The position numbers and the translations under genes were made by a program. Positions 26,835 to 49,199 of a DNA stretch of 64,000 bases are shown here, one piece after another (within the stretch, counting starts at the first letter, position 1; the number at the start of each line of letters is the position of its first letter). The stretch lies in the NCBI RefSeq assembly GCF_900115495.1, contig NZ_FOWR01000004.1, positions 124,001 through 188,000 on the forward strand. The letters are read 5' to 3'. A model generated the notes under the pieces. It saw only the letters and a list, made by a program, of their open reading frames with translations, searched no databases and was not told the DNA's origin. This DNA comes from Enterovibrio norvegicus DSM 15893 (GTDB lineage Bacteria > Pseudomonadota > Gammaproteobacteria > Enterobacterales > Vibrionaceae).

Positions 26835-26947
26835 TTTCGTATCCTTACAGGTCGAACTTTTGGTGCTCAAAAAACACGCAACACATACAAACTTAAGATA
26901 GCTGCCGATTACTCGTAACATAGGAGCAATTGGCATCACCCCATCTA

Positions 26948-28927: not shown

Positions 28928-29042
28928 TTTGGCGGCGACACCCAACCAAAGCAAGTTTCTCCGTTCGACAGGGGAGTTCTGAACTTCCGCAATGCGCGCA
29001 GCGCTGTTGCGGTCAAGATGTAGGATTAGAAATACGGACGAT

Positions 29043-32000
29043 ATGATGAAGAATATATTTGCAAAAATGCTGTTGATGGCGTCTGTCGCCTTAACTGGCT
29101 GTGGTGGTGGGGATGACCCTATCGTGGGTGAGTCGATAGAAGGCTCGCCCCGTTCTGAAGATGTTTTAACCGTTCAATCCTCTGGTGCACTGCGCTCTGG
29201 ATTGGGGTTGAATGGTTGGGAAGGTGTTGCTCGCATTACTTCTGGTGATGCAGTCACTGTTACTACTCCTTCTAGCGAAGCAGAGGCGGGTGATTTTGGC
29301 GATTTTAAATGGGGAGCGGGCGTAACTTCAGATCCTGCACTTGATCTTTCAGGCTACGGTGATGGTTATCTAAATTTTGAAGTGAAAGGTACTGTTCAAT
29401 CTCCGGTGACTATCGGCTTCCAGACCGGAGAGTTTGGTAATGCAGATCGCCCTGACGCATCTAACGGAGTTGTGTTTGAGCCAACTGCTGCATCACCTAA
29501 CAGTGGTGTAAATGCGCTTGCCGGCGGTCGTACGATTACTAGTGATTGGCAAACTTATCAGATTAGTATTTCTGAGTTGACTAGCGGCTTGCCTATTGAT
29601 TTTACAGATGTATCGTCACCTTTATTCATTGCAGGACCAGGTGTTGACGGCGGTACAGTAGAAGTCCGGAACGCATTTTTTTCAAAATCTCCTAATTCCG
29701 AAATTGGTACTGACAGTGAGCAATGGACCGTTTTTAACGGTGCTGTAACTGCTAACTCATACATCGCATACAGTGGTCAACAATCTACATTGCCTGTTGA
29801 AATTTGGTTCGATAATTTTGGTAGTGGTTCTACTGTCTCGAACTTGACGGGAGAGGAATATTCGACAGCTTTTGAGCTCACTAGCGGCAATGAGTGGGGA
29901 ATCGACGTTGCAGTAACTGCATTTGGCCTACCAAACAATCCGGCAGACATCTCCGCGTATAATTTTGCTCGATTCAAGGTTCAACCTGGTAACTTTACAG
30001 GTGTCGAAAGTGTTGTTATTCAACCAAATGAGAATGATCCCGAAAACCCTTTTGAAACACGCTATCACTATGGTTTTTCTAGCGGAACCGATCTCGGTAA
30101 TGGCTGGATCCAAATGCAAGTGCCTGTCCCCGCAGGTGTAGAGGACTTAGCATGGTACGCGATTCAATTTAACGGCGTGGGCAAGATGAAGCTCGCCGAT
30201 ATAGAATTTGTCAACGTTGGTGCTGGGCAAGGTCAAGGTATTGACGGCGGAACTGACGGTGGCACCGATGGTGGTTCAAACTCTTCTGGTACAGGCTACA
30301 TTCTCTACACTGGTCAAGAAGCCAATGTTTCTTTCGAAGAGTTACAAGCATGGAATGGTGCAGGTATTTCGGAAGTATCTGGTGGTACTTATGATCCTGC
30401 ACTTGAGCTAACTGTCACTGGTGGTTGGGGAGCTTTAGCTTGGGCTAGCTCATCAAGCGTTGTCGATTTCACTCCATACACTCATGCACAATTCAAAGTG
30501 AAGACTGACGCTGCTCAAGTACGTGTGTCTATCACTGGTCAAAGTGACGGAGAAGTTGCGAACGATCACCAGCTTTCGACAGGCACAGCATTAGCTGACG
30601 GCTGGGTGCAAATGGAAATACCCGTCCCGGCTTTTGCAGATGTAACTACGTTTGCTTTGGTGCTAGGACAAGATGGTACGTTGCAGATTGCTGACATTGC
30701 TTTGGTGAACAACAATACCGATGGCGGCACTGACGCTCCAGATACAGGTTACATTCTCTACACTGGTCAAGAAGCTAATATTGCTTTCGAAGATCTACAA
30801 GCGTGGAATGGTGCTGGTATTTCGGAAGTTTCTGGCGGTACTTATGACCCAGTACTTGAGCTGACCGTTACTGGTGGATGGGGTGCATTAGCTTGGGCTA
30901 ACTCATCAAGCGTTGTCGATTTCACTCCATACACTCACGCGCAATTCAAAGTGAAGACTGATGCTGCTCAGGTACGTGTGTCTATCACTGGCCAGAGTGA
31001 CGGAGAAGTTGCGAACGAATACGCGCTTTCGACAGGTACAGCACTAGCTGACGGCTGGGTGCAAATGGAAATACCGGTCCCAGCCTTTGCAGATGTGACT
31101 ACATTCGCTGTGGTGCTAGGACAAGATGGCACGTTGCAGATAGCTGATATTGCTCTGGTCAAGAACGATACTGACGGCGGCACCGATGGTGGCACTGACG
31201 GCGGCACTGATGGTGGCACTGACGGCGGCACTGACGGCGGCACTGATGGTGGCACTGACGGCAGCAGCACTGAATACTCAGTAGCGCCTGAAATTGCGCC
31301 ACAACCAACGGCAACGGGTGACTTCCCAGTTTCAACCGTTACTGGTGGTGATGCATCAGGACAGCCTGTGCTTGGCACTGCTCAACTGCCTGCAATCTCT
31401 TACGGTGCATATCGCACAAACGTGCGTTCTAATGAAAATGCTCCAAGCGTTGCGGAAGTTAAAGAAGACCTGAAAATCATGCATGCAACTGGCATTCGTA
31501 TGCTGCGTACATATAACACTCAGGACTTCGTAGACACTGAACGTTTACTTCAGGCGATTGATGAGCTTCAGCAGGAAGACGCTAGCTTCGAAATGAACGT
31601 CATGCTTGGTGTGTGGATTTCAGCACTCAATGCATTCTCTAATGTAGAAATAGACAGTTCACAAGAACATGCCAACAACCAATTGGAAATGGATAAAGCG
31701 GTTGAGTTCGCTCAAACCTATCCAAACATTATCAAAGTGATTGCGGTTGGTAATGAGGCAATGGTTGAGTGGGCGAGCAGCTACCGTGTTGAGCCTGGTA
31801 TTATCCTGAGCCGTGTTAACGAACTTCAAGCAATGAAGGCCGATGGCACAATCAGTGATGATATTTGGATCACCAGTTCTGAAAACTGGGCGGTTTGGTC
31901 TATCAACAATGGTTACTACCAAGCGCATGAAGCAGACATCAAAGCACTGATTCAAGCAGTTGACTACGTGTCCGTTCATGTTTACCCATTCCACGATACA

Positions 32001-35000
32001 TTCCATGACGGTGATTTCTGGCCAGTTCCTGAGTCAGAGCAATCTCTTACTCGTCAAGAACAAGCTGATAAAGCCATGGAGCGCGCGTTCAACAAAGCGC
32101 TAACTCAAATTGATGCTGTTAAAGACAGTGTCATGGCAATTGACAGCACTAAGCAGATTCACATTGGTGAAACAGGTTGGTCGACTGAGTCGAACACTGG
32201 TTTCGGTGCTGGTGGAACGGGTGCTTCTGATGAGTACAAACAGAAGAAATACTATGATGCGATGAGCCAATGGGCTATCGACTACGGCGCATCTGTATTC
32301 TTCTTCCAAGCATTTGATGAACCATGGAAAGGTGGTGCTGAAAACACTGGCGATCCAGAGAAACACTTTGGTCTGATCGACATTGATGGTAATGCGAAAT
32401 ATGCCATTTGGGATCTGGTTGATGCCGGTGCGTTTGAAGGAATCACTCGCGGTGGTAATCAGATCGTTAAGTCAAACGGCGGTGTTGAGCAAAACGTCAT
32501 TGACGCTATTCACGCTATTCCGTACGAAACGGGTTCTGATACCTCTGGTGCTGGGTACGTCATGTATACCGGTAAAGACACTGTTCACGGCTTCGACGAC
32601 ATTCAAGTATGGTCGCAAGACGGTTCGGGTGCTTCAATTGGTGCCGGAAGTGACAGCACTTATTCACCTGTTCAAGAACTTACGGTAACGGGTGATTGGG
32701 GTTCTGCTGCTTGGTTGTTTAACACAACACAAGTAGACCTTACGCCATACACACATGCCGAGTTCAAAGTTAAAACATCTGCTGCGAATGTTGATGTCAC
32801 TTTCATCAACCAAGCAGATGAAACAACAGCTAACCCATACTCACTGTCATCAGGTACTTCACTTGATAATGGTTGGGTTCAAATGAGCGTGCCAGTGCCT
32901 TCTTATACTGATATGAAGACATTCGCGTTGACGCTTGGTGAAAACGGAACACTTGAGATCGCTGACATTGCATTCGTGAACAACGATAGCAGTGGCGGTA
33001 CTGACGCTCCAGAAACGGGCTATGTACTTTACACCGGTCAAGAGACAAACATTGTCTTTGAAGACGTTCAAGTATGGAACAATGCTGGTTTAAGCGAGGT
33101 CGCTAATGACACGTACAATCCAGTACTAGAACTCGACGTAACGGACGGTTGGGGCGCGGTTGCTTGGGTTAGCAGCTCAAATCCAATTGATATCTCGTCT
33201 TACACACATGCACAGTTCAAAGTGCGCACAGATGCAAGCGCGGTTCGATTGTCTATTCAGAGTCTGTCACAGGATGAGGTCGCTAATGACTACTCACTGT
33301 CACAGGGTACTGCTCTGACTGATGGCTGGGTACAAATGGAAGTGCCATTACCCGCATTCACAGACATGACAACCTTCGCGATGGTATTGAGCCAAAACGG
33401 CACCTTGGAAATTGCTGATGTTGCTTATGTGAACAAAGGCAATGGTGGTGCTGCGCCAGAAGTTGGCTACATCCTGTATACAGGCCAAGAAACCAACCTT
33501 GTTTTCGATGATGTTCAAGTCTGGAACAATGCAGGTCTAGGTGATGCTACCAGTGACTTGTATAACCCTGTACTTGAATTGACAGTCACTGATGGTTGGG
33601 GTGCATTGGCGTGGTCAAGTACGCTTAACCCAATTGACGTTACGTCATACACACACGCACGCTTCAAGCTTCTGACTGACCTTGCTCAGGTTCGCATCTC
33701 AATCCAAGGTGTAACCGATGGTGAAGTGGCTGATGATTACTTGCTTTCAAACGGAACAGCGCTGACAGATGGCTGGGTACAAATGGAACTACCACTGCCT
33801 GACTTCGCGGATTTAACAACCTTCGCGGTTGTCCTGTCAGAAAACGGTAGCTTCCAGATTGCAGACCTCGCGTTTGTAAACGCTGATAATGACGGCGGCA
33901 CCGATGGTGGTACTGACGGTGGCACCGATGGTGGCACCGATGGTGGCACCGATGGTGGTACTGACGGTGGCACCGATGGTGGTACTGACGGTGGCACCGA
34001 TGGTGGTACTGACGGTGGCACCGATGGTGGTACTGACGGCGGCACTGATGGTGGTACTGACGGCGGCACCGATGGTGGTACTGACGGCGGCACTGACGGC
34101 GGAACCGATGGTGGCACTGACGGTGTGACTATCACAGCGAGCGATATTATTGACTTCGAAGCCAACACAGTAACGTGGGAAGTGTTCGAAAACGATGACA
34201 ACCCAGCGGTTGAGCTTGTTGCTAACCCAGATACATCTGGTGCAAATGTTTCTGCGACAGCAGCCAAGCTAATTGCACGTGAAAATGGCCAACCATGGGC
34301 TGGTGCAATCACTCGCGACGTAGAACCGTTTACCCTTGATGCGACCAACAGCGTTGTTCGTATGATGGTGTATAAAGACAAAATCAGCACAGTACGTTTC
34401 AAACTGGAAACAGCAAGTGGTTATGCGCAAGAGCTTCTTGCTAACAATACGCTTGTTAACCAGTGGGAAGAGTTGACGTTTGATTTCTCTTCTGTCGCAG
34501 ACTTGTATGACGGTCCTGTAACAGGCGTAGTTGTGTTCCCTGATTTTGTTGATGCGGATACTATGCGTGATGCTGATGCAGTCATGTACTTCGACAACAT
34601 CACATTCAATGCAGCGGACACGGACGGCGGCACTGATGGTGGAACTGACGGCGGAACTGACGGCGGTACCGATGGTGGTACGACTGGAAGTGTGACGTCT
34701 ATCTTTAGTGATGATTACACCGATATTGCCATCAATGAATGGGGCCCTAACTGGGGTGACTCTTCAGCTCGCATCATCGATGGCACTCTGAATGACAGCC
34801 CAGCCAAAGTGATCACGCTTGGCGCAGGTCAAACATTCGCCGGTATTGATTTCTCATCAGCAGCATTTGACGCGACGAGTCTTACTACTTTCCATATGCA
34901 GTACAAATTAGATCCTTTGTTAGCTGGGCAAGTGGTTAATATTAAGTTGTCAAATCATGATGGTGGCAATGGCGAAACCGGTGCGATTCAATACACCAGC

Positions 35001-36482
35001 GTACCTTCAAGTGAAGATGTCGTTACGCTTGCGATTCCGTTTACTGAATTTACAGACGCAAGTGGCAGTGGTGATTTATCACGAAATGCTATCGCACAAA
35101 TCGTCATTTCTGCGGCAAGATCTGATGGCAGTGCGCCAGTAGATATCTATCTCGATAATATCTATTTCAGTGATGGCAGCACCGATGGTGGCACTGACGG
35201 CGGTACCGATGGTGGCACTGACGGCGGCACCGATGGTGGTACTGACGGCGGCACCGATGGTGGCACTGACGGCGGCACCGATGGTGGTACTGACGGCGGC
35301 ACCGATGGTGGAACTGACGGCAGCACCGATGGTGGTACTGACGGCGGCACCGATGGTGGTACTGACGGCGGCACCGATGGTGGCACTGACGGCGGCACAG
35401 ACGGTGGAACTGACGGCGGCACGACTGACAACACGCCAATCGTTATCTTTAACGATGCGGCTAACCCGCAGTGGGTAGCATGGGATTGTTGTGGTGGAAC
35501 GACGCCACCTGTTACGACGGATAGTGATGCGACTTACGGCGCTGTGACCTTCTTTGAAGTGGCTAATGCGACAGTGAACGGCTTTAGTTCTCGTGACGGT
35601 GTTGCTACGGATCCTCAGCCAATCGATGTGAATGCATGGATGGTAGAAGGTGTCATCTCATTTGATATCAAGCTACTTGCTGCAGGTGAAACACCTGCTG
35701 ATGTTTGGAACTTCAAAGTAGAGTCAAATGGTGGTAGTGAAGCTGTGGAGCTGCGTTTAGACACTGTTCCAGAGTTGAACGTATGGAAGAACTACACGTT
35801 CAACCTGAGCGACCTGTCGAACAACGGCCTAGACCTCACTGCAATTGACCTGATTATGGTGTTCCCAGCTTGGGATACAGGAATCGGTTCTGAGTACGTG
35901 ATAGACAATGTTGTCATCTCTCCGACTGCTAATGATGGCGGCACTGACGGTGGCACTGATGGTGGTACTGATGGCGGCACTGACACAACAGGTGACGTTG
36001 TTTCCATCTTCAGTGATGACTACACCGATATCACTGTAAATGAGTGGGGCCCTAACTGGGGTGACTCTTCAGCACGTATCACTGATGGCGATCTTAACGG
36101 TAGTCCAGCTAAAGTGATTAATGTTGAAGCAGGTCAAGTGTTTGCCGGCATTGATTTCTCTTCGGCAGCATTTGATGCATCTAGCTTCACGACATTCAAC
36201 ATGCAATACAAAGTCGATCCTTTGTTAGCAGGTCAGGTGATTAACATTAAGTTGTCTAACCATGCTGGAGGCTCTGGTGAGACTGGTGCGATTCAATACA
36301 CCAGTGTTCCTTCAAGTACTGATGTAGTGACATTGAGTGTTTCGCTAGATGATTTTACCGATGCGAGTGGCAGCGGTGATTTATCAAGAGATGCGATTGC
36401 ACAAATTGTTATCACTGCTTCAAGAGCTGATAGCAATGAGTCTGTCGATGTTTATTTAGATAACATTTATTTCAGTAAATGA
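29043..36482 (+). CDS. Giant multimodular GH17 beta-1,3-glucanase lipoprotein
   Basis: About 2,479 residues, far larger than usual GH17 enzymes (300-500). The lipobox LTGC (C about 19) follows MMKNIFAKMLLMASVA, predicting outer-membrane anchoring. The GH17 barrel is at about 780-1160, with acid/base E905 in VGNEAM and nucleophile E1043 in HIGETGWST. Around it are carbohydrate-binding-like beta-sandwiches: an ExoP-like domain (about 45-235), a divergent module (about 240-400), five related modules starting at 418, 569, 1171, 1326 and 1475, and four C-terminal modules (about 1695-1858, 1884-2043, 2128-2297, 2318-2479; the second and fourth are close copies). Thr-Asp-Gly-Gly repeats link them. 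The in-frame upstream ATG at 28992 would spoil the signal peptide. It probably binds and trims laminarin at the cell surface with the GH16 protein and porin. Confidence 0.9.
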   Translation: MMKNIFAKMLLMASVALTGCGGGDDPIVGESIEGSPRSEDVLTVQSSGALRSGLGLNGWEGVARITSGDAVTVTTPSSEAEAGDFGDFKWGAGVTSDPALDLSGYGDGYLNFEVKGTVQSPVTIGFQTGEFGNADRPDASNGVVFEPTAASPNSGVNALAGGRTITSDWQTYQISISELTSGLPIDFTDVSSPLFIAGPGVDGGTVEVRNAFFSKSPNSEIGTDSEQWTVFNGAVTANSYIAYSGQQSTLPVEIWFDNFGSGSTVSNLTGEEYSTAFELTSGNEWGIDVAVTAFGLPNNPADISAYNFARFKVQPGNFTGVESVVIQPNENDPENPFETRYHYGFSSGTDLGNGWIQMQVPVPAGVEDLAWYAIQFNGVGKMKLADIEFVNVGAGQGQGIDGGTDGGTDGGSNSSGTGYILYTGQEANVSFEELQAWNGAGISEVSGGTYDPALELTVTGGWGALAWASSSSVVDFTPYTHAQFKVKTDAAQVRVSITGQSDGEVANDHQLSTGTALADGWVQMEIPVPAFADVTTFALVLGQDGTLQIADIALVNNNTDGGTDAPDTGYILYTGQEANIAFEDLQAWNGAGISEVSGGTYDPVLELTVTGGWGALAWANSSSVVDFTPYTHAQFKVKTDAAQVRVSITGQSDGEVANEYALSTGTALADGWVQMEIPVPAFADVTTFAVVLGQDGTLQIADIALVKNDTDGGTDGGTDGGTDGGTDGGTDGGTDGGTDGSSTEYSVAPEIAPQPTATGDFPVSTVTGGDASGQPVLGTAQLPAISYGAYRTNVRSNENAPSVAEVKEDLKIMHATGIRMLRTYNTQDFVDTERLLQAIDELQQEDASFEMNVMLGVWISALNAFSNVEIDSSQEHANNQLEMDKAVEFAQTYPNIIKVIAVGNEAMVEWASSYRVEPGIILSRVNELQAMKADGTISDDIWITSSENWAVWSINNGYYQAHEADIKALIQAVDYVSVHVYPFHDTFHDGDFWPVPESEQSLTRQEQADKAMERAFNKALTQIDAVKDSVMAIDSTKQIHIGETGWSTESNTGFGAGGTGASDEYKQKKYYDAMSQWAIDYGASVFFFQAFDEPWKGGAENTGDPEKHFGLIDIDGNAKYAIWDLVDAGAFEGITRGGNQIVKSNGGVEQNVIDAIHAIPYETGSDTSGAGYVMYTGKDTVHGFDDIQVWSQDGSGASIGAGSDSTYSPVQELTVTGDWGSAAWLFNTTQVDLTPYTHAEFKVKTSAANVDVTFINQADETTANPYSLSSGTSLDNGWVQMSVPVPSYTDMKTFALTLGENGTLEIADIAFVNNDSSGGTDAPETGYVLYTGQETNIVFEDVQVWNNAGLSEVANDTYNPVLELDVTDGWGAVAWVSSSNPIDISSYTHAQFKVRTDASAVRLSIQSLSQDEVANDYSLSQGTALTDGWVQMEVPLPAFTDMTTFAMVLSQNGTLEIADVAYVNKGNGGAAPEVGYILYTGQETNLVFDDVQVWNNAGLGDATSDLYNPVLELTVTDGWGALAWSSTLNPIDVTSYTHARFKLLTDLAQVRISIQGVTDGEVADDYLLSNGTALTDGWVQMELPLPDFADLTTFAVVLSENGSFQIADLAFVNADNDGGTDGGTDGGTDGGTDGGTDGGTDGGTDGGTDGGTDGGTDGGTDGGTDGGTDGGTDGGTDGGTDGGTDGGTDGGTDGVTITASDIIDFEANTVTWEVFENDDNPAVELVANPDTSGANVSATAAKLIARENGQPWAGAITRDVEPFTLDATNSVVRMMVYKDKISTVRFKLETASGYAQELLANNTLVNQWEELTFDFSSVADLYDGPVTGVVVFPDFVDADTMRDADAVMYFDNITFNAADTDGGTDGGTDGGTDGGTDGGTTGSVTSIFSDDYTDIAINEWGPNWGDSSARIIDGTLNDSPAKVITLGAGQTFAGIDFSSAAFDATSLTTFHMQYKLDPLLAGQVVNIKLSNHDGGNGETGAIQYTSVPSSEDVVTLAIPFTEFTDASGSGDLSRNAIAQIVISAARSDGSAPVDIYLDNIYFSDGSTDGGTDGGTDGGTDGGTDGGTDGGTDGGTDGGTDGGTDGGTDGGTDGSTDGGTDGGTDGGTDGGTDGGTDGGTDGGTDGGTTDNTPIVIFNDAANPQWVAWDCCGGTTPPVTTDSDATYGAVTFFEVANATVNGFSSRDGVATDPQPIDVNAWMVEGVISFDIKLLAAGETPADVWNFKVESNGGSEAVELRLDTVPELNVWKNYTFNLSDLSNNGLDLTAIDLIMVFPAWDTGIGSEYVIDNVVISPTANDGGTDGGTDGGTDGGTDTTGDVVSIFSDDYTDITVNEWGPNWGDSSARITDGDLNGSPAKVINVEAGQVFAGIDFSSAAFDASSFTTFNMQYKVDPLLAGQVINIKLSNHAGGSGETGAIQYTSVPSSTDVVTLSVSLDDFTDASGSGDLSRDAIAQIVITASRADSNESVDVYLDNIYFSK
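30294..31166 (+). repeat. Tandem 453-bp module duplication within the GH17 gene
   Basis: Two nearly identical binding-like modules (each starting GYILYTGQEAN) with a period of 453 nt (30294 and 30747). Three more diverged copies follow the catalytic domain at 32553, 33018 and 33465. The high nucleotide identity of the first pair indicates a recent duplication or gene conversion. Confidence 0.85.
31170..31265 (+). repeat. 12-bp in-frame repeat encoding TDGG linker (8 units)
   Basis: Eight 12-nt units, seven TDGG and a final TDGS, immediately before the GH17 catalytic domain. Confidence 0.9.
33900..34127 (+). repeat. 12-bp in-frame repeat encoding TDGG linker (18 units plus one variant)
   Basis: Eighteen TDGG units ending in TDGV. 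Synonymous codons alternate (ACC GAT GGT GGT / ACT GAC GGC GGC), forming higher-order 24-bp periods. A shorter 5-unit array lies at 34620-34679. Confidence 0.92.
35181..35420 (+). repeat. 12-bp in-frame repeat encoding TDGG linker (20 units)
   Basis: Twenty units, one being TDGS, between C-terminal binding-like modules. Another short array (3 units) lies near 35935-35985 before the last module. Confidence 0.92.
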
Positions 36483-41369: not shown

Positions 41370-42503
41370 TTATCCCTCAAACCCTAGCCCACCTTGAGTA
41401 ATATTGATCACCTTGTGTCGCTTGATTGCCTCTTGTGCGGCGAGGCCGAGTACAACCGCTTTAAGACCGTCTTCCAGCGTCACTTCCACAGATTGCTCAC
41501 CCAAGATGGCGCGCTGAAATTTCTGGTGTTGATAGAAGGTTGAACCGTTGTGGTCACCTGCTTCTAGCAATTCTGGATCGACAGGTACATCCATCTGTTT
41601 TGGCCCTTTCGGATTGCGAGGGCTAGAGATGACTTTTGAAACAGGAGCTTCTCCAAGCGTTTCCGTTGGCCAAAAACGACCAGGCCCAGGGACGAAGCAT
41701 TCAATTTTTCCCGCATCCCCCACGGCACAAATTTCTTCTTGGTAGCGTGAACCTTCTGCAAACATGCAAAGTTCCAAACTGGCTCGCGTACCGTTACCAA
41801 ACTCTACGGTGACGAAAGCATTGTCGAGAATGTCAGGTGTTTGACCGTCATATTGTTCGTCACGGTGGTTCACGGCTTGGCTGCCAGAGCCGAATACACG
41901 AACCGGATTGGCTTGGGTTAGTAAACGCATGAGATCGAAAAAGTGACAGCATTTCTCAACCAGGGTGCCGCCTGTTTTGTGGTTGAAGCGGTTCCAGTCA
42001 TCCACTTTCTCTAGGAAAGGAAAACGGTGCTCGCGAATCGAAAACAGATGACGCTGACCGACTTCGCCGTTATCGAGCAATGAGAGTAACTTGGTGATCG
42101 GCGGCATATAACGGTATTCCATCGCCACCCAAATAGGAGAAGGGTGTGTTGCAGCAGCGTCGAGCAGCAGGTTTACGTCTTCGATGCGCGTGCAAATGGG
42201 CTTTTCAATCAGTATGGGTAGAGAGCAGCGGCTCAACATGCCCAATAATTGCTCTGCATGCTGGTAGTTAGGTGTGGCCACGACAATGGCATCGACATTG
42301 TTTGTTTCCATCAAGGCGTCTAAGTCATCAACACAGGTTGCTTCTGGCACGAGTGTGTGGGCAAGCTCGCGCATTTCAGCGTTAGGTTCGGCCAATACAG
42401 TGATTTCGACATTGTCTAACAGTTGAATATTGCGAATGTGCTCGCGTCCCATCATGCCGCACCCGAGAATACCGTAGCGAAGAGGGGTTCCTTGTTGTGT
42501 CAT
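41370..42503 (-). CDS. Gfo/Idh/MocA-family NAD-dependent enzyme (candidate NAD+-dependent sulfoquinovosidase, GH188-like)
   Basis: A 377-residue protein with an N-terminal Rossmann domain (YGILGCGMMGREHIRN), the EKPICT motif whose Lys is the usual catalytic or binding residue, and a C-terminal alpha/beta domain with GGTLVEKCCHFFDLM. Family members are sugar dehydrogenases, but some are NAD-dependent glycosidases (GH4/GH109-like logic), and GH188 sulfoquinovosidases belong to this superfamily. It is transcribed with the GntR gene 66 nt upstream and divergent from a monooxygenase set resembling the Smo pathway, so release of sulfoquinovose from its glycosides is an attractive but unproven role. 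A plain sugar dehydrogenase is the alternative. Confidence 0.8.
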   Translation of the reverse strand: MTQQGTPLRYGILGCGMMGREHIRNIQLLDNVEITVLAEPNAEMRELAHTLVPEATCVDDLDALMETNNVDAIVVATPNYQHAEQLLGMLSRCSLPILIEKPICTRIEDVNLLLDAAATHPSPIWVAMEYRYMPPITKLLSLLDNGEVGQRHLFSIREHRFPFLEKVDDWNRFNHKTGGTLVEKCCHFFDLMRLLTQANPVRVFGSGSQAVNHRDEQYDGQTPDILDNAFVTVEFGNGTRASLELCMFAEGSRYQEEICAVGDAGKIECFVPGPGRFWPTETLGEAPVSKVISSPRNPKGPKQMDVPVDPELLEAGDHNGSTFYQHQKFQRAILGEQSVEVTLEDGLKAVVLGLAAQEAIKRHKVINITQGGLGFEG

Positions 42504-42569
42504 TGCATTGTCCTTATGAAAAATGGGAGGAATACCGTCAAGACCGATTGTTATAAAAAACGATAGTTA

Positions 42570-43277
42570 TTAAGACCATCGTGCGGCGTAACGGACGGTA
42601 TGGGGATCAAACCAAGTGAATGAGACTTCTTCGATGCGGTCTCGGTTGGACCAACTCATTCGTTCGATATAGCCGCAGGGTGAGCCTTCAGCTAACTCAA
42701 ATTCTTTGGGCTTCCAATCTGGCACGTTACTGACAGTGATGCTGTCTTGAACACGGGAGATCCAAAACCCCAACTTCTCGCGGTAATACACGTAAAGTGA
42801 TTCCACTAATTCTTGCGGGTCTATGGCAGTACGGTGTCGCCCATCGATCCAAATTTCTTCTACTGCAGCGGGTTTTTGATCAAGACGACGCAAACGGCGA
42901 AATCGCCACAATGGCGCATTCGAAGGCAGGCTGAGTAAAGAGGCCACATAGGTGTTCTGCATTTTATCTACACTAAGAAAATCCGCATTCGGCAACCCGC
43001 CACCGCTTTGCAGTTCTAACCTGAAAAAGTGGTAGATGGCATTGTCGCTCAATGTTTCTTTTACATAGGTGCCAGAACCTTGTTTTCGTTCTAAAAGCCC
43101 TTTGTTTTCCAATTCTGCGAGTGCTTTGCGGAGCGTGCCTGTCGCAACCCCCAGTTTTTTTGACAATTCTGCTTCCGTTGGCAATCGCTCGCCTGGCAGC
43201 CAATAGCCAGCGGTGATTTCTCTGTGCAACAGCTCGCTAATTTGAATGAACAGGGGTAATCGGATTGATTCACTCAT
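42570..43277 (-). CDS. GntR-family regulator (HutC subfamily, UTRA domain)
   Basis: A 235-residue repressor. The N-terminal winged helix (about 1-75; PGERLPTEAELSKKLGVATGTL) precedes a UTRA effector domain (about 90-230) that binds small ligands such as sugar derivatives. It starts the minus-strand unit with the Gfo/Idh/MocA gene and is divergent from the monooxygenase-TRAP operon. It is therefore the likely local repressor of both, with the pathway substrate or intermediate as inducer. Confidence 0.9.
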   Translation of the reverse strand: MSESIRLPLFIQISELLHREITAGYWLPGERLPTEAELSKKLGVATGTLRKALAELENKGLLERKQGSGTYVKETLSDNAIYHFFRLELQSGGGLPNADFLSVDKMQNTYVASLLSLPSNAPLWRFRRLRRLDQKPAAVEEIWIDGRHRTAIDPQELVESLYVYYREKLGFWISRVQDSITVSNVPDWKPKEFELAEGSPCGYIERMSWSNRDRIEEVSFTWFDPHTVRYAARWS

Positions 43278-43537
43278 TTCTAAAAATTCTCGAAATTAAT
43301 AAATGCTTTTAATTTAATGGTTTACCGCTCGCTAGCGATATCTTAGTGCTAAATCAACATCAAATTCATTCAGCATTGATTTACTTTTCATATTTATCTT
43401 ATAGCATTATTTAACAAATCATTCACTATTCATTTACCTTGTGGGTATTTTCGCATGGAGCGTTAGGTGCTGATTGTTAAGCACTTTCGGTGTGCGTGAA
43501 TTGAGTTTAAAAAGAAAAAAGAGCGGGAGATTGGACA
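43278..43537. promoter_or_regulatory. Divergent promoter/operator region of the monooxygenase-TRAP cluster
   Basis: 260 bp, AT-rich. It contains TCGCTAGCGA (43329-43338, perfect palindrome), the inverted repeat TAAATCAA / TTGATTTA (43350-43357, 43376-43383) and GTGCT/AGCAC near 43467-43484. Any could be the GntR operator; the sequence alone does not decide. Confidence 0.5.
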
Positions 43538-44695
43538 ATGAGTGTAGTGCCCATCACAAGTGCAGGATTAGATGCCTCGGAGGTGTCTTGGTTTGCACCT
43601 ATTTGCAGTGATGACTATCGCTATCTAGGTGTGCCAGATGGCAATTTGAGAAGTAATTGGGAAAACACGCGAGACATCGTACTCACCGCTGAAAAGCAGG
43701 GTTTTCGTAACATTTTATGTCCTTCGTCTTACCAAGTCGGGCAAGACACCATGACCTTCGCGTCGGCGATGGGTCCACTGACTGAGCGCATTAACCTGTT
43801 GGCTGCGATTCGTTGTGGTGAGGTTCATCCTGCGATGTTGGCACGCTCGGTAGCGACACTCGATCACATCATGAAAGGGCGACTCACCCTGAATGTGATT
43901 TCCTCTGATTTCCCCGGACAGAAAGAAGACAGCGCGTTTCGCTATCGCCGTTCGAAAGAAGTGGTTGAGATCCTGCGCCAAGCATGGACGCAAGATGAAA
44001 TCCGCTACCAAGGCGAGATTTATAACTTGAGCGATTTGTCGACAGATCCGGTGCGCCCATATCAACAAAACGGTGGCCCGTTACTGTATTTCGGCGGTTA
44101 CTCACCAGATGCCTTAGAGCTGTGTGGTTCTGAGTGTGATGTCTACCTGATGTGGCCGGAAACGCAAGACATGTTGGCGAATCGTATGCGCGCGGTGAAT
44201 GAAGTGGCACAACGCCACAATCGCACCTTGGATTACGGATTGCGTGTTCACATGGTGGTGCGTGATACCGAAGCAGAAGCCAAAGAATATGCAGAGTCAT
44301 TGGTTTCGAAGCTTGACGATGAATTTGGTCGCTCGATCAAAGAGCGTGCGTTAGATGCAACCAGCCTTGGTGTGGCGCTTCAGTCGAAGCAGCGTGAAGA
44401 CGCAGACAAGTTTGGTTACACCGAATCGAACCTTTGGACGGGCGTAGGTCGCGCGCGCTCTGGGTGCGGTGCGGCCTTGGTAGGCAGTGTTGACCAAGTG
44501 CTGACCAAAATTGAGGAATACCAAAAAATGGGGATTCGCGCGTTTATCTTCTCGGGATACCCGCACAAAGACGAATGTGAAATTGTGGGCCAGAAAATTC
44601 TGCCACACCTGAAAACCTGTTCAATGCCAGAAGAATATGGCCGTGTGCCGGCAACAACACCAGCAACACCTTTGGGTGTGGGAGAAAGAAAGTAA
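43538..44695 (+). CDS. LLM-class flavin-dependent monooxygenase (SmoC/SsuD-like, candidate sulfoquinovose monooxygenase)
   Basis: A 385-residue bacterial-luciferase-like TIM-barrel protein using reduced flavin from a partner reductase. SsuD-type motifs are visible: WFAPICSDDYRYLGVPDG at the start, GRLTLNVISSDFPGQKEDS and YFGGYSPDALEL. The C-terminal LWTGVGRARSGCGAALVG resembles SmoC (sulfoquinovose monooxygenase), as far as I recall that protein. It would cleave the C-S bond with O2, releasing sulfite and 6-oxo-glucose. GGGAGA precedes the ATG; the stop overlaps the next start (TAATG). Alkanesulfonate monooxygenase is the alternative. Confidence 0.85.
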   Translation: MSVVPITSAGLDASEVSWFAPICSDDYRYLGVPDGNLRSNWENTRDIVLTAEKQGFRNILCPSSYQVGQDTMTFASAMGPLTERINLLAAIRCGEVHPAMLARSVATLDHIMKGRLTLNVISSDFPGQKEDSAFRYRRSKEVVEILRQAWTQDEIRYQGEIYNLSDLSTDPVRPYQQNGGPLLYFGGYSPDALELCGSECDVYLMWPETQDMLANRMRAVNEVAQRHNRTLDYGLRVHMVVRDTEAEAKEYAESLVSKLDDEFGRSIKERALDATSLGVALQSKQREDADKFGYTESNLWTGVGRARSGCGAALVGSVDQVLTKIEEYQKMGIRAFIFSGYPHKDECEIVGQKILPHLKTCSMPEEYGRVPATTPATPLGVGERK

Positions 44696-45597
44696 TGAAG
44701 TACACCCAACTGAACGACGCTTTACCTGCTTTTAGTCGCATTGTTTATGGCGCTTGGCGTTTAGCCGACGATGTTGATACCTCAGAAGCGAATGTCCGCG
44801 CGAAAGTCGATGCGTGTTTAGAGCAAGGCATTACCACGTTTGATCATGCGGATATTTACGGCGATTACGAATGTGAGGCGGTGTTTGGTCAAGTGTTGGC
44901 GAAAACGCCGTCACTGCGTGATCAAATACAGCTCGTAAGCAAATGCGACATCATGTTGCTGTCCGACAAATACGCCGATCGTCGCGTGAAGTACTACGAT
45001 ACCTCGCCAGCGCACATCCGCACGTCGGTACATAACTCGTTAAAACACCTGAATACCGATCACCTTGATTTACTGCTGATTCACCGTCCGGATCCTTTCA
45101 TGGATCACCATGCCACTGGGCAAGCGCTGGATGCCTTGATTGATGAAGGCTTGGTGAAAGGCGTTGGTGTATCGAACTTCCAACGCTGGGATTGGGATTT
45201 ACTCCAATCTGGCATGAAAAACCCATTGGTGACCAATCAAGTCGAAATGAGCTTGCTTGCGCGTGACAGCTTTACTGATGGCACCTTGGCGTTTATGCAG
45301 CAACACGGCATCAAGCCGATGGCATGGTCACCGCTTGCGGGTGGTGAGTTGTTTGGTAATGGCGAAGCAGCGCAGCGCGTGAAGCCATTGTTACAACGTG
45401 AAGCGGAGCGTTTTGGCGTAGGCATTGATGCGGTGGCGGTTGCTTGGTTATTGGCACACCCAGCGGGCATTTTGCCTGTGGTTGGCACCAATAATTTGGC
45501 ACGTATTCGTACCGCAAGTGATGCACTGAAGGTGAACATTGACCGAGAAACATGGTTTGAACTCTTAACGGCAGCCGCCGGGGAGGAAGTGGCATGA
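44695..45597 (+). CDS. Aldo/keto reductase (YdhF-type; SmoB-like candidate)
   Basis: A 300-residue NADPH-dependent (beta/alpha)8 reductase with the full catalytic tetrad visible: D50, Y55 (FDHADIYGDYE), K83 (LVSKCD) and H130 (LLLIHRPDP). In the sulfo-SMO pathway SmoB reduces 6-oxo-glucose to glucose, and the position between the monooxygenase and flavin-reductase genes fits that step. The gene is coupled on both sides by 1- and 4-nt overlaps. A general aldehyde-detoxifying role is possible. Confidence 0.87.
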   Translation: MKYTQLNDALPAFSRIVYGAWRLADDVDTSEANVRAKVDACLEQGITTFDHADIYGDYECEAVFGQVLAKTPSLRDQIQLVSKCDIMLLSDKYADRRVKYYDTSPAHIRTSVHNSLKHLNTDHLDLLLIHRPDPFMDHHATGQALDALIDEGLVKGVGVSNFQRWDWDLLQSGMKNPLVTNQVEMSLLARDSFTDGTLAFMQQHGIKPMAWSPLAGGELFGNGEAAQRVKPLLQREAERFGVGIDAVAVAWLLAHPAGILPVVGTNNLARIRTASDALKVNIDRETWFELLTAAAGEEVA

Positions 45598-46070
45598 GTA
45601 AGGAACTGCGCAACGCATTAGGACGCTTTGCAACGGGCGTGACGGTCATCACCGCACGCCATGAAGGCGAAGATTACGGGCTGACCTGTTCATCGTTCAA
45701 TTCTGTGTCGCTTGAGCCTGCCATTGTGCTGTGGAGCTTAAACAGTGGGTCGTCGTCGAAAGTGCCGATCCTTGAATCGGGCGGTTACACGGTAAGTGTG
45801 CTTGCCGTGGAACACTCTGAGCTCGCGATGAAGTTTTGCCGCGGAAGCCACGAAGAACGTTTCAGCGATGTCGACATTGAACGTGCACCCAGTGGTCGCG
45901 CTATCATTTCTGGCGCTGTGGCGTGGTTTGATTGTGATATGCATGGCGTGGTGGCTGCAGGCGATCACGACATCATGCTGGGCAAAGTGACGGACTTTAG
46001 CTCTGGCCGTGAAGGTTCGGGGTTGGTGTTTGAACAAAGCCGATTTGGTCGTGTAGGAGAAGTGGCTTAA
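45594..46070 (+). CDS. Flavin reductase (HpaC/RutF-type; SmoA-like candidate)
   Basis: A 158-residue NAD(P)H:flavin oxidoreductase of the flavin_reduct family. The N-terminal motif RNALGRFATGVTVITARHEG, TCSSFNSVSLEPAIVLWSL, and a GDHDIMLGKV segment are typical. It supplies reduced FMN to the monooxygenase at 43538. It overlaps the aldo/keto reductase by ATGA and the TRAP gene by TAATG, so all belong to one operon. Confidence 0.9.
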   Translation: MSKELRNALGRFATGVTVITARHEGEDYGLTCSSFNSVSLEPAIVLWSLNSGSSSKVPILESGGYTVSVLAVEHSELAMKFCRGSHEERFSDVDIERAPSGRAIISGAVAWFDCDMHGVVAAGDHDIMLGKVTDFSSGREGSGLVFEQSRFGRVGEVA

Positions 46071-46645
46071 TGGCATTTATGACGACGAGTTTAACCGCAA
46101 TTTCCGCGATCAACGATCGCATCGGGAAGATTGGCTCATCGATCGCGTGGGTGTTGGTGGCGTTAATGGTCGGCAGCATTTTGCTTCAAGTGGTGTGTCG
46201 CTACGTGTTCAATTCCGCCCTACCTTGGCCGGAAGAAGTCGCGCGCGCATTGATGATTTGGATGATGGCATTGGTTGCTGGTGAAGCGTATCGAAAAGGC
46301 ATGTTTGTCTCGATCGATATGATCCATAACTACTTACCTGCCAGCGTTAGCCGGTTCATCAAAATCTTTCTGCTTGCGCTGGCGTTTGCCGTGTTGGTTC
46401 AACTGTTCGTCGTTGCTCTTGAGTTTTTTGACCGCGGGTTTCGTACCCGCGCTGCGTCGTTTCCATTGAAACGCGCATGGATTTACCTCGCGATGCCTGT
46501 GTGCTTCGGCACCATGTTATTGGCGAATGTTGAATTGTTCCTTCGCGCTTTACTGCCAGGCAGTGCGTCGTCTGATGGTGATGCGTCTGAAGACAAAGGC
46601 GGTGATGAGGGAACATCCATTAACGCGAGTACGGAAAAAGGATAG
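46070..46645 (+). CDS. TRAP transporter small membrane subunit (DctQ family)
   Basis: A 191-residue inner-membrane protein with four predicted helices (about 25-48, 57-75, 97-118, 137-160) and the DctQ motif WPEEVARALMIWMMALVAGEAYRK (within residues 55-78). It has an extended acidic, Ser-rich C-terminal tail beyond the last helix. It partners with the large permease at 46737. Its start overlaps the flavin reductase stop, tying uptake to the monooxygenase pathway. Confidence 0.9.
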   Translation: MAFMTTSLTAISAINDRIGKIGSSIAWVLVALMVGSILLQVVCRYVFNSALPWPEEVARALMIWMMALVAGEAYRKGMFVSIDMIHNYLPASVSRFIKIFLLALAFAVLVQLFVVALEFFDRGFRTRAASFPLKRAWIYLAMPVCFGTMLLANVELFLRALLPGSASSDGDASEDKGGDEGTSINASTEKG

Positions 46646-46736
46646 CGGCGATAGCCATATTTATTGGCACGTCGATGGGTAACGTGAGGCATGAAATATG
46701 CCCAAACCCACGCTCAACATAGGGAAGTGGTTGTAA

Positions 46737-48023
46737 ATGTTAATCCTGTTTTTACCTCTGTTCTTACTGATCCTCATGCTTGGCATGCCCGTGTTTTTTG
46801 CCCTGCTGACCGCGCCTGGCTTAATGCTGTATGCAGAAGGCATGGATCGCGATATTCCTTTGCTGTTCCGCAACATCTACAACGGCATTGATTCATTCCC
46901 ACTGATGGCGATCCCCTTCTTTATGTTGGCGGGCGAGGTGATGAACCGAAGCGGTATCACCCTCAGCTTGGTGAGCTTTTCCCAGTCTTTGATTGGGCAT
47001 GTGCGTGGCGGTTTGGCGCATGTGAATGTTATGTCGAGCATGTTGTTTGCAGGGCTATCAGGCTCTGCGGTGGCTGATACCTCTGCAATCGGCTCCATGA
47101 TGATCCCTGCCATGGAAAAGAACGGGTACTCACGAAAATTTGCGGCGGCCATTACCGCGGCTTCGTCCGTGATTGGCCCGATCATTCCGCCTTCAGGCAT
47201 CATGATCATTTATGCCTACACCATGGAAATATCTGTCGCAGCATTGTTTGCGGCGGGTGTGGTGCCAGGGCTGTTGATTGGTGGTGGGTTAATGGCGCTG
47301 ATTGCCTTGATGGCGAAGAGCCAAAATTTGCCCATTGCCAGTGAAAAAGCGACGTGGCGAGAGCGTGGTGTGGCAACGAAAAATGCCTTCTGGCCGTTGC
47401 TCACGCCTGTGATCATTTTGGGTGGTATCTTAGGGGGTATTTTTACCCCGACAGAAGCATCGGCAATTGCCGTTGTGTATACCCTTGTCGTGGGAATGTT
47501 TGTTCTTAAAACCGTCAAATTGAAAGATATCCCAGACATCTTTACCAGCAGTGCAAAATCGTCAGCGGTTATCTTGTTGCTGGTGGGTTCCGCGCTGGCC
47601 TTTAAAACCGTGGTGTCGCTTTCTCACGCAGCAGAAGCCATGGCGGAGTTCACGCTGGGCATCAGTGATAACCCGCTGATCCTACTCTTCTTGATCAACA
47701 TTTTACTCTTTGTGATTGGTATGTTCCTCGATGCCGGTCCTGCCATCATTATTCTTGGCCCAATCTTGGCGCCTGTTTTTATCAGCCTGGGTATCGACCC
47801 AGTGCATTTCGCCATCATCATGAGCGTCAATTTAACGGTTGGCCTTGCGACGCCGCCGATGGGCCTTGTGCTCTTTGTCGCCTCCAGTGTGTCTGGTGAA
47901 AAAGTGGAAACCATCTCCCGTGCCATTTTGCCGTTCTTGGCAGTCGAAGTATTGGTGATATTCCTGATTACGTTTTTCCCGGCTCTGTCTATGACTATCC
48001 CGCAGTGGTTAGGCTTGGCGTGA
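46737..48023 (+). CDS. TRAP transporter large permease subunit (DctM family)
   Basis: A 428-residue permease with about 12 helices. Motifs typical of DctM: GMPVFFALL, MNRSGITLSLVSF, LSGSAVADTSAIGSMMIP, VIGPIIPPSG (substrate/Na+ region) and LFVIGMFLDAGPAIIILGP. It uses a sodium gradient. It is separated from dctQ by 91 nt, which contain only a short leader. It forms the transporter with the Q and P subunits in this operon. Confidence 0.94.
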   Translation: MLILFLPLFLLILMLGMPVFFALLTAPGLMLYAEGMDRDIPLLFRNIYNGIDSFPLMAIPFFMLAGEVMNRSGITLSLVSFSQSLIGHVRGGLAHVNVMSSMLFAGLSGSAVADTSAIGSMMIPAMEKNGYSRKFAAAITAASSVIGPIIPPSGIMIIYAYTMEISVAALFAAGVVPGLLIGGGLMALIALMAKSQNLPIASEKATWRERGVATKNAFWPLLTPVIILGGILGGIFTPTEASAIAVVYTLVVGMFVLKTVKLKDIPDIFTSSAKSSAVILLLVGSALAFKTVVSLSHAAEAMAEFTLGISDNPLILLFLINILLFVIGMFLDAGPAIIILGPILAPVFISLGIDPVHFAIIMSVNLTVGLATPPMGLVLFVASSVSGEKVETISRAILPFLAVEVLVIFLITFFPALSMTIPQWLGLA

Positions 48024-48110
48024 GTGGGTTTGTAAGCAACGGAGAACTGACGTTCTCGCCTTAACAAAGTCAGTGTTCGACTGGCTATCCACGGATGTGA
48101 AAGGTGAAGT

Positions 48111-49199
48111 ATGAAAACAACAGTAAAAACAATGCATAAAGCATTGAAAGGAAGTGCTCTCGGACTGGCTGCTGTCATGTCGACAATGGCAATGACCGCG
48201 CCAACAATGGCCGCCGATTTTAACCTTCGTGCCGTCGCGAATTCGAACGAAAACGATGAAGATTATGATGGTCTTGTTGTCTTCAAGGATTTTGTTGAAT
48301 CACACTCAAACGGCAAGATTAAAGTCGATCTTTTCATTGGTACCCAACTTTGCGGCAACGGCACCGAGTGCATCCAAGCAGTAGAAGATGGCTCTGTTGA
48401 TGTTTATATTTCAACCTCTGGTGGCGCGGCTAACATGTTCCCGTATATCCAAGTGCTGGATCTGCCGTATGTATTGCCTGATGATCGAACCGCTGAAGCC
48501 GTGCTTCAAGGTGATTTTGTGCGTGAACTACGTAAAGAAATCCTCGCTGACACCGACAACAAATTGCGTTTGATGGCGATTGGTAACACGGGTGGTTGGC
48601 GTAATTTTGCTAACACCAAACGCACGGTAAAACAGCCAAGTGACATGGAAGGGTTGAAAATCCGTACCGTGGTGGCTGATTTGCCGCAGGAACTTGTTAA
48701 AGCGCTGGGCGCTAGCCCTACGCCAATCCCATGGCCTGAGCTTTACACCTCATTCCAAACGGGCGTGGTTGAAGGCTCAAAAAACGGCATTACTGACATC
48801 ATGGGCATGAAGTTTCCAGAAGCGGGCCTGAAATATGTCACGCTCGATGGTCACGCATACATGTCAGCACTGTGGTACATGAATAACGAAGTGTTCATGG
48901 ACATGCCTGTTGAGCAGCGCAAAGTGATCGTTGACGGTTTCCGCGCGTTGCAACAAGCAACGTTTGCGTCTCCGAAGCGTAAATCGATTGCCGCCTATGA
49001 AGCCTTCAAAAAATCAGGCGGTAAGCTTTATGTGCCATCGCCAGCAGACAAAGCCAAGTTCCAAGCAGCGGCTGCACCTGTGTACACCTGGTTCCAAGAG
49101 AACGTAGACGATGGCAAGAAGTGGTTTGATCTTCTGCAAGTTGAAGCTGATAAAGCCAAAGCGAAAATCGCTGCGGATGATAAAGCGGATTTGATGTAA
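48111..49199 (+). CDS. TRAP transporter substrate-binding protein (DctP family)
   Basis: A 362-residue periplasmic receptor. A signal peptide (cleavage about residue 34, PTMA-ADF) precedes a typical DctP domain with GVVEGSKNGITDIMGMKF and KIRTV, where an Arg normally grips the ligand carboxylate. Here a sulfonate would have to fill that role if the cluster handles sulfosugars. It has a Cys pair in the first lobe (QLCGNGTECIQA), possibly a disulfide. Last gene of the operon, followed by a terminator. Confidence 0.92.
   Translation: MKTTVKTMHKALKGSALGLAAVMSTMAMTAPTMAADFNLRAVANSNENDEDYDGLVVFKDFVESHSNGKIKVDLFIGTQLCGNGTECIQAVEDGSVDVYISTSGGAANMFPYIQVLDLPYVLPDDRTAEAVLQGDFVRELRKEILADTDNKLRLMAIGNTGGWRNFANTKRTVKQPSDMEGLKIRTVVADLPQELVKALGASPTPIPWPELYTSFQTGVVEGSKNGITDIMGMKFPEAGLKYVTLDGHAYMSALWYMNNEVFMDMPVEQRKVIVDGFRALQQATFASPKRKSIAAYEAFKKSGGKLYVPSPADKAKFQAAAAPVYTWFQENVDDGKKWFDLLQVEADKAKAKIAADDKADLM

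Follow-up and report, generated by a model that had tools for sequence, protein, structure and literature searches.

A predicted oxidative sulfoquinovose operon in Enterovibrio norvegicus and the TRAP transporter family that accompanies it

Gene content of the locus

Sulfoquinovose (SQ) is a sulfur-containing sugar of plant and algal membranes. Its yearly production amounts to some 10 billion tons (Kaur et al. 2023, PMC10755693; this and the other papers below are cited from the accessible parts of their texts). To describe a candidate locus for its use, we analysed a 64,000-nucleotide stretch of Enterovibrio norvegicus DSM 15893, a member of the Vibrionaceae (contig NZ_FOWR01000004.1, positions 124,001 to 188,000; host genome 5.45 Mb), hereafter the window. 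Positions 41370-49199 hold a cluster that very probably encodes SQ uptake and oxidative desulfonation by the SQ monooxygenase (sulfo-SMO) route. An earlier note on this DNA had listed eight genes here, and their coordinates and order are borne out: each is an uninterrupted open reading frame, the order is as first described, and the Pfam families of the eight proteins (GFO_IDH_MocA, GntR with UTRA, Bac_luciferase, Aldo_ket_red, Flavin_Reduct, DctQ, DctM and DctP) all score past their cut-offs.

End-to-start overlaps of 1-4 bases link smoC, smoB, smoA and dctQ; dctM and dctP, genes of a tripartite ATP-independent periplasmic (TRAP) transporter, follow after gaps of 91 and 87 bases, respectively. 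The GC content of the cluster is 49.7% and that of the window 47.3%, which gives no clear sign for or against a recent insertion. The features are collected in Table 1.

Table 1. Predicted genes and operator-like sites of the cluster, in window coordinates (GH, glycoside hydrolase; FMNH2, reduced flavin mononucleotide)
Feature	Position	Strand	Basis
GH188 NAD+-dependent sulfoquinovosidase (SqgA), predicted; 377 aa, signal peptide absent by eye	41370..42503	-	GH188 structure scores and SQ-contact residues
GntR/UTRA regulator, 235 aa	42570..43277	-	Pfam UTRA 85.5 bits, GntR 66.3 bits
Operator-like site 1, AATTCATTCAGCATTGATTTAC	43363..43384	+	motif score 28.6
Operator-like site 2, AAATCATTCACTATTCATTTAC, 53 bases downstream of site 1	43416..43437	+	motif score 18.0
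SmoC, FMNH2-dependent sulfoquinovose monooxygenase, predicted; 385 aa	43538..44695	+	72.9% identity to 7olf, tree
SmoB, aldo/keto reductase (6-dehydroglucose to glucose), predicted; 300 aa	44695..45597	+	373 bits to 7bby
SmoA, flavin reductase, 158 aa	45594..46070	+	Pfam; homologue near smoC in 75/80 loci
DctQ, TRAP small permease	46070..46645	+	Pfam
DctM, TRAP large permease	46737..48023	+	Pfam; TIGR00786 425 bits
DctP, TRAP solute-binding protein, signal peptide by eye	48111..49199	+	Pfam, alignment, structure model, gene-context survey

Catabolic enzymes

The monooxygenase aligns without gaps to two structures, 7olf and 7oh2, which we take to be SmoC: it shares 280 of 384 residues with the former (72.9%) and 72.1% with the latter, versus 33.7% with the alkanesulfonate monooxygenase SsuD. 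Within the Vibrionaceae, it is 99% identical to SmoC of Enterovibrio baiacu. We placed it in a tree of 85 proteins, made up of the window protein, those of 80 related loci (the best 80 of 474 confirmed), 7olf, 7oh2, SsuD and 7jv3, which is presumably MsuD. A fork at 100/100 sets SsuD and 7jv3 apart on very long branches, and the window protein, 7olf and 7oh2 fall inside the group of 80 locus proteins. The earlier note had said that clustering with alkanesulfonate enzymes would speak against an SQ pathway; the tree separates the protein from them, and together with the identities it led us to reject the alkanesulfonate monooxygenase as its identity. Five SmoC residues, W206, R236, H238, R307 and Y341, presumably those of the SsuD active site, are conserved across all 80 loci; because SsuD has the same residues, they do not discriminate between the two enzymes.

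The aldo/keto reductase scores 373 bits to 7bby, which together with 7bbz we take to represent SmoB, versus at most 229 for the next group (the YdhF group). The catalytic tetrad of the aldo/keto reductase family, described as intact in the earlier note, is indeed complete, with D50, Y55, K83 and H130 aligning with identical residues of 7bby. SmoA belongs to the HpaC/FerA kind of flavin reductases and falls under the cut-off of all NCBIfam models listed. The sulfo-SMO pathway requires a SmoC orthologue distinct from SsuD, with a SmoB reductase and a SmoA flavin reductase in the same cluster, and all three are present here, given the labels we assume for 7olf, 7oh2 and 7bby. The SQ dioxygenase (sulfo-SDO) pathway requires an Fe/2-oxoglutarate dioxygenase of the TauD type; none occurs among the eight genes, so this reading of the window was rejected, and one relative, L138, has such a gene.

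The 41370-42503 protein scores 447 bits to 8zn9, which is named 'oxidoreductase, putative' only, and 381 bits to 8qc2 and 8qc3, the GH188 pair described by Kaur et al. (PMC10755693); the next match beyond these reaches 69 bits, in keeping with the GH188 relationship raised in the earlier note. In ArSqgA, the residues that contact SQ are K107, Y136, R166, L170, K172, E189, H193 and H321 (PMC10755693), and the window protein matches all eight with K101, Y130, R160, L164, K166, E183, H187 and H318. This mapping uses an offset of 13 between the numbering of the chain and that of the paper, which fits all eight contacts; for ArSqgA Glu163 the aligned Glu is window E158, at 164 under the same offset, a discrepancy of one position. 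Of the 77 loci that have a match, 76 retain any given contact; the exception is L052 (for H318, L060), whose match does not extend to the position. Inositol dehydrogenase was rejected as an identity for this protein (NCBIfam iolG 116 bits, cut-off 355). A GH31 enzyme of the PRK10426 type was not found in the genome of the window, a weak negative in that 0 of 14 control genomes (E. coli included) passed the cut-off; because of this result, the GH188 protein is probably the sole sulfoquinovosidase of the genome.

The cluster and its regulatory region in relatives

Seven of the genes, scored with DctQ left out, occur in the order and on the strands of the window in 55 of the 80 loci, mostly from Rhodobacterales, and because of this recurrence the conserved eight-gene arrangement is not due to chance. 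Of these 55, 54 also show a match to DctQ, and all nine Vibrionaceae loci (L002-L010) belong to the 55. Within 11 kb of SmoC, GH188 was present in 77 of the 80 loci, GntR in 79, SmoB in 79 and SmoA in 75; at an identity of at least 50%, DctM was present in 58 and DctP in 57. Replicons of Ruegeria sp. TM1040 and Rhizobium sp. SL42 have all eight genes, in TM1040 in an order identical to that of the window, and both carry a 'putative sulfate exporter' nearby, whereas the window cluster has no adjacent one. A cytochrome c peroxidase also lies near the TM1040 cluster.

The earlier note had regarded the combination of the C-B-A gene order with TRAP import and GH188 as unusual. This part did not hold: the combination is not unique, because 55 of the 80 loci share the order, making it the common form among the relatives, and because GH188 in Roseobacter sulfo-SMO clusters had been published in 2023 (PMC10755693). 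Judged by its gene content and order, the cluster is an operon of the Roseobacter type found in a different group of hosts; its Vibrionaceae host and a clear second operator-like site set it apart from the Roseobacter-clade clusters. SmoC (E <= 1e-120) occurs in 13 of 247 Vibrionaceae genomes. The genus of the window, with 18 genomes listed, accounts for 12 of these, counting the window's own genome; the thirteenth (G200) belongs to another genus and has a complete cluster. A 2026 survey found sulfo-SMO in one of 6854 Vibrio genomes, that of Vibrio thalassae (PMC13372026), a species to which G200 may belong. Two points are new here: the operon is placed in Enterovibrio and Grimontia, so that both join the likely SQ-desulfonating bacteria, and there is evidence bearing on its importer.

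The gap between gntR and smoC contains the motif AATTsATwCAnnATTGATnTAC. A model of this motif, seeded with the Vibrionaceae sites and fitted on the same 80 regions that it scored (the window and 79 loci), reaches an information of 30.4 bits and a score above 8 in 77 of the 80 intergenic regions; in five resampled sets with the same base succession, 38-46 regions exceed 8 and the information is 8.0-8.4 bits. These statistics are inflated by relatedness, yet the gaps of Alpha- and Gammaproteobacteria are otherwise dissimilar. A second copy at a spacing of 53 bases is present in nine of nine Vibrionaceae regions viewed (the window and eight of the nine loci), and in L014, L029 and L045, the three regions scanned from outside the Vibrionaceae, this copy is weak or missing. 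We infer that the GntR/UTRA protein binds the two candidate sites, 43363-43384 and 43416-43437. A promoter scan gave 2 matches versus 8.1 expected and was uninformative.

The importer family and the proposed pathway

DctP, DctQ and DctM are encoded together, as a TRAP transporter requires, and R185 of DctP aligns with the conserved TRAP arginine, the equivalent of SiaP Arg-147, as judged from sequence alignments. In TRAP binding proteins this arginine binds a carboxylate, rarely a sulfonate or phosphate (PMC4646407); we propose that R185 would hold the sulfonate of the ligand. Across 27 aligned family members, 71 positions do not vary, including R164, R185, N225, H248, W163 and W208; the genome encodes 14 further DctP proteins, which are at most 31% identical to that of the cluster. 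The AlphaFold model of DctP (pLDDT, the predicted local confidence, 86; residues 1-29 below 50) resembles TRAP proteins generally. Among the structure matches listed, only a sialic acid protein has a better E-value than the isethionate protein IseP (8t9t), and no target TM-score is higher than the 0.92 of IseP and 4p47. IseP is a TRAP sulfonate-binding protein of similar fold; it differs from DctP in sequence (27% identity) and in its ligand, which is small and not a sugar. Between the window and E. baiacu, DctQ identity is 86%, compared with 98-99% for the neighbouring proteins; the distance from the start of DctQ to residue 16 of DctM is 712 bases in the window, 682 in L002, 605 in L003 and 612 in L009.

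We surveyed 198 Rhodobacteraceae-type genomes for SmoC (E <= 1e-100) and DctP (at least 55% identity), scoring at most 10 candidates per genome and leaving out two weaker DctP rows (49% and 35%). SmoC occurs in 88 genomes and DctP in 71; 53 have both and 18 have DctP alone. This co-occurrence, like the one expected for an SQ transporter family, is above chance (Fisher p 1.6e-10, uncorrected for relatedness), and DctP lies within 7 kb of SmoC in 49 of the 71 genomes and on another contig in 4. Thirteen of the 18 DctP loci without SmoC resemble the Embden-Meyerhof-Parnas type of SQ pathway (sulfo-EMP): GH188, a sulfoquinovose-isomerase-like protein and a PfkB kinase are present in 13 of 13 and a LacD-type aldolase in 12 of 13; the one isomerase-like protein scanned scores 258 bits to NF048012 (cut-off 700). 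L129 has GH188 and GntR; L135 has GH188, GntR, SmoB and SmoA; L132 has SmoB and SmoA. The last two resemble sulfo-SMO operons with SmoB, SmoA and TRAP genes (L135:7374-10848 and L132:5192-9870), and no SmoC was found for either, in the genomes at E <= 1e-100 or in the stretches at E 0.1; about 1 kb upstream of the L132 operon, the opposite strand encodes a Rieske oxygenase alpha subunit. A MauG-like di-haem protein (e.g. L131:7290-9101) accompanies 11 of the 13 sulfo-EMP-like loci and also L127 and L129, and that it might oxidize sulfite is a guess.

In the Vibrionaceae, DctP (E <= 1e-55) occurs in 37 of 247 genomes: 12 of the window's genus, G200, G158 and 23 with identities of 39-47%. We examined one place each from G200, from G158 and from 18 of the 23 others. 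The G200 locus (L139) is sulfo-SMO; that of G158 (L138) combines GH188, GntR and TRAP with its TauD-type dioxygenase, as in sulfo-SDO. The 18 others, with DctP at about 44-46%, have GH31 in 17 cases, and the remaining one (L154) has an isomerase, aldolase and sulfolactaldehyde-reductase set. In L150, the only locus in which GH31 was checked, this protein scores 852 bits versus the solved YihQ sulfoquinovosidase, and the reductase passes the cut-off for sulfolactaldehyde 3-reductase (497 versus 348); the isomerase is nearest to a D-mannose isomerase model, under its cut-off, and from context may be an SQ isomerase. In six of the 18 (L145, L146, L147, L152, L155 and L156), which have DctP and a LysR regulator, glycerol dehydrogenase and dihydroxyacetone kinase adjoin GH31; because cleavage of SQ-glycerol would release glycerol, these clusters may point to SQ-glycerol as cargo. 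Of the 12 DctP matches on plasmids, 10 are more than 60% identical, each with a SmoC match less than 4 kb away; one of the 11 SmoC matches above 60% (Marinovum) has no such DctP and has an ATP-binding cassette (ABC) set instead. Of the two remaining plasmid records, DctP of Photobacterium DA100 is in a sulfo-EMP-like cluster, and that of Pacificitalea (L085) has no SQ gene beside it.

Since relatives of DctP sit in SMO-, EMP-, SDO- and GH31-containing SQ-type clusters, the cargo of the importer is most likely SQ or SQ-glycerol. We consider it probable, from gene context, that DctPQM represents a distinct TRAP family (DctP at least 42% identical) dedicated to SQ or SQ-glycerol across sulfo-SMO, sulfo-SDO and sulfo-EMP pathways with GH188 or GH31, its cargo being a sugar with a sulfonate and without a carboxylate. 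The importer family is a stronger result than the identification of the operon. For the operon itself we propose, with a probability of roughly 0.9, that it serves the use of SQ and SQ glycosides as carbon and sulfur source by oxidative desulfonation; the sulfo-SMO operon suggested in the earlier note is thereby supported by the SmoC tree and identity, the GH188 contacts, the SmoB score and the conserved order. In the proposed pathway, periplasmic DctP would bind SQ or SQ-glycerol for import by DctQM on an ion gradient, after which the cytoplasmic GH188 enzyme would free SQ with NAD+. SmoA would reduce flavin, SmoC with FMNH2 and O2 would cut the C-S bond to give sulfite and 6-dehydroglucose, and SmoB would convert the latter to glucose for glycolysis. 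The GntR/UTRA protein may act on one or both sites between gntR and smoC and be released by an SQ compound.

Several observations weigh against this assignment of the operon. The Protein Data Bank (PDB) names of the reference structures, whose SmoC and SmoB labels are our assumption, are methanesulfonate sulfonatase (7olf), alkanesulfonate monooxygenase (7oh2) and aryl-alcohol dehydrogenase (7bby), and a literature search by the codes 7olf, 7oh2, 7bby and 8zn9 returned no matching paper. A sulfite exporter is absent from the operon (the genome has nine TauE-type proteins past the cut-off and one PF03601 protein), and a TIGR00749 glucokinase was not found in the genome, which has five ROK-family matches, of which one is partial and another has an in-frame stop. 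The name of 7olf would also suit an operon that scavenges sulfur from simple sulfonates with a general alkanesulfonate or methanesulfonate enzyme: the superfamily is the same, the five residues discussed above are shared, and the best NCBIfam model for SmoC is SsuD. We regard this as very improbable, because the SsuD score (242 bits) is under half of the cut-off of 518, the tree and identities separate the enzymes, and such an operon leaves no role for the reductase or for the GH188 protein that is so consistently near SmoC. It is just as improbable that SQ is secondary and that the operon acts on another sulfo-sugar or sulfoglycoside, for instance sulfofucose or a red-algal glycan. Catabolism of sulfofucose is known (PMC12421959), but all eight named SQ contacts of GH188 are kept, and SmoC and SmoB closely resemble enzymes that we take to be characterised on SQ, as does the GH188 protein those of PMC10755693.

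A somewhat less remote alternative, though still unlikely, accepts the sulfo-SMO enzymes and holds that the TRAP transporter imports another cargo, such as a carboxylate, isethionate or 2,3-dihydroxypropane-1-sulfonate (DHPS), and is linked to the cluster by history only. TRAP proteins mostly bind carboxylates (PMC4646407), the isethionate protein shares the top TM-score among the matches listed, and three DctP loci speak for this view and against a dedicated SQ family: L127 and L134, two of the 18 loci without SmoC, have no SQ-specific gene, and no SQ gene was seen beside the Pacificitalea relative (L085, 46-50%). Of the 88 Rhodobacteraceae-type SmoC genomes, 35 lack DctP, as do 23 of the 80 SmoC loci at the 50% level, some of which end early; because of these two counts, TRAP is not obligatory. 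Some TRAP-less SQ clusters carry an ABC binding protein instead, as in the Marinovum plasmid and in 4 of 10 sampled loci (L021, L027, L048 and L073; one protein scanned in each, the other 6 not of this type), and the DctP family accompanies SQ-type genes in five settings with differing catabolic enzymes, whose common steps, as far as seen, are uptake and glycoside cleavage. Both points argue against another cargo. In L127:2633-5683, a PhyH-type dioxygenase and a sulfatase-like piece adjoin the 67% DctP, and this may be a different sulfosugar cluster.

The window cluster shares the SmoA, SmoB and SmoC chemistry of the Agrobacterium sulfo-SMO cluster, which has a GH31 sulfoquinovosidase where the window has GH188. 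The Agrobacterium importer for SQ-glycerol is of the ABC type (PMC9594981), whereas that of the window is TRAP. With the hybrid sulfo-EMP clusters of Vibrio (PMC13372026), for which an induced cluster of ten genes is described, the likeness is SQ use in Vibrionaceae; those cleave a C-C bond to yield DHPS, whereas the window cluster would desulfonate. The Vibrionaceae loci that resemble these hybrid clusters carry the related TRAP transporter (DctP 44-46%). Within the open literature, short of key papers, figures and supplements, we found no text naming a TRAP transporter for SQ or the importer of marine sulfo-SMO bacteria, and no word beginning with 'trap' occurs in the main text of PMC12890257 or PMC13372026. 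If our proposal is true, this TRAP family would be a marker of SQ uptake across catabolic pathways, and the TRAP substrate range would widen beyond mostly carboxylates (PMC4646407).

Outside the cluster, a GH16 enzyme lies beside a LamB porin upstream in the window (25269-28369), consistent with the laminarin-type neighbours mentioned in the earlier note. A 2496-residue protein at 28992-36482 has weak Pfam matches only (CIA30, a galactose-binding-like domain and WCX). Near the cluster, katG is whole in L002 only and cut by the end of the stretch in L004, the stretches ending soon after, and a SIP gene is nearby in six of the nine Vibrionaceae loci.

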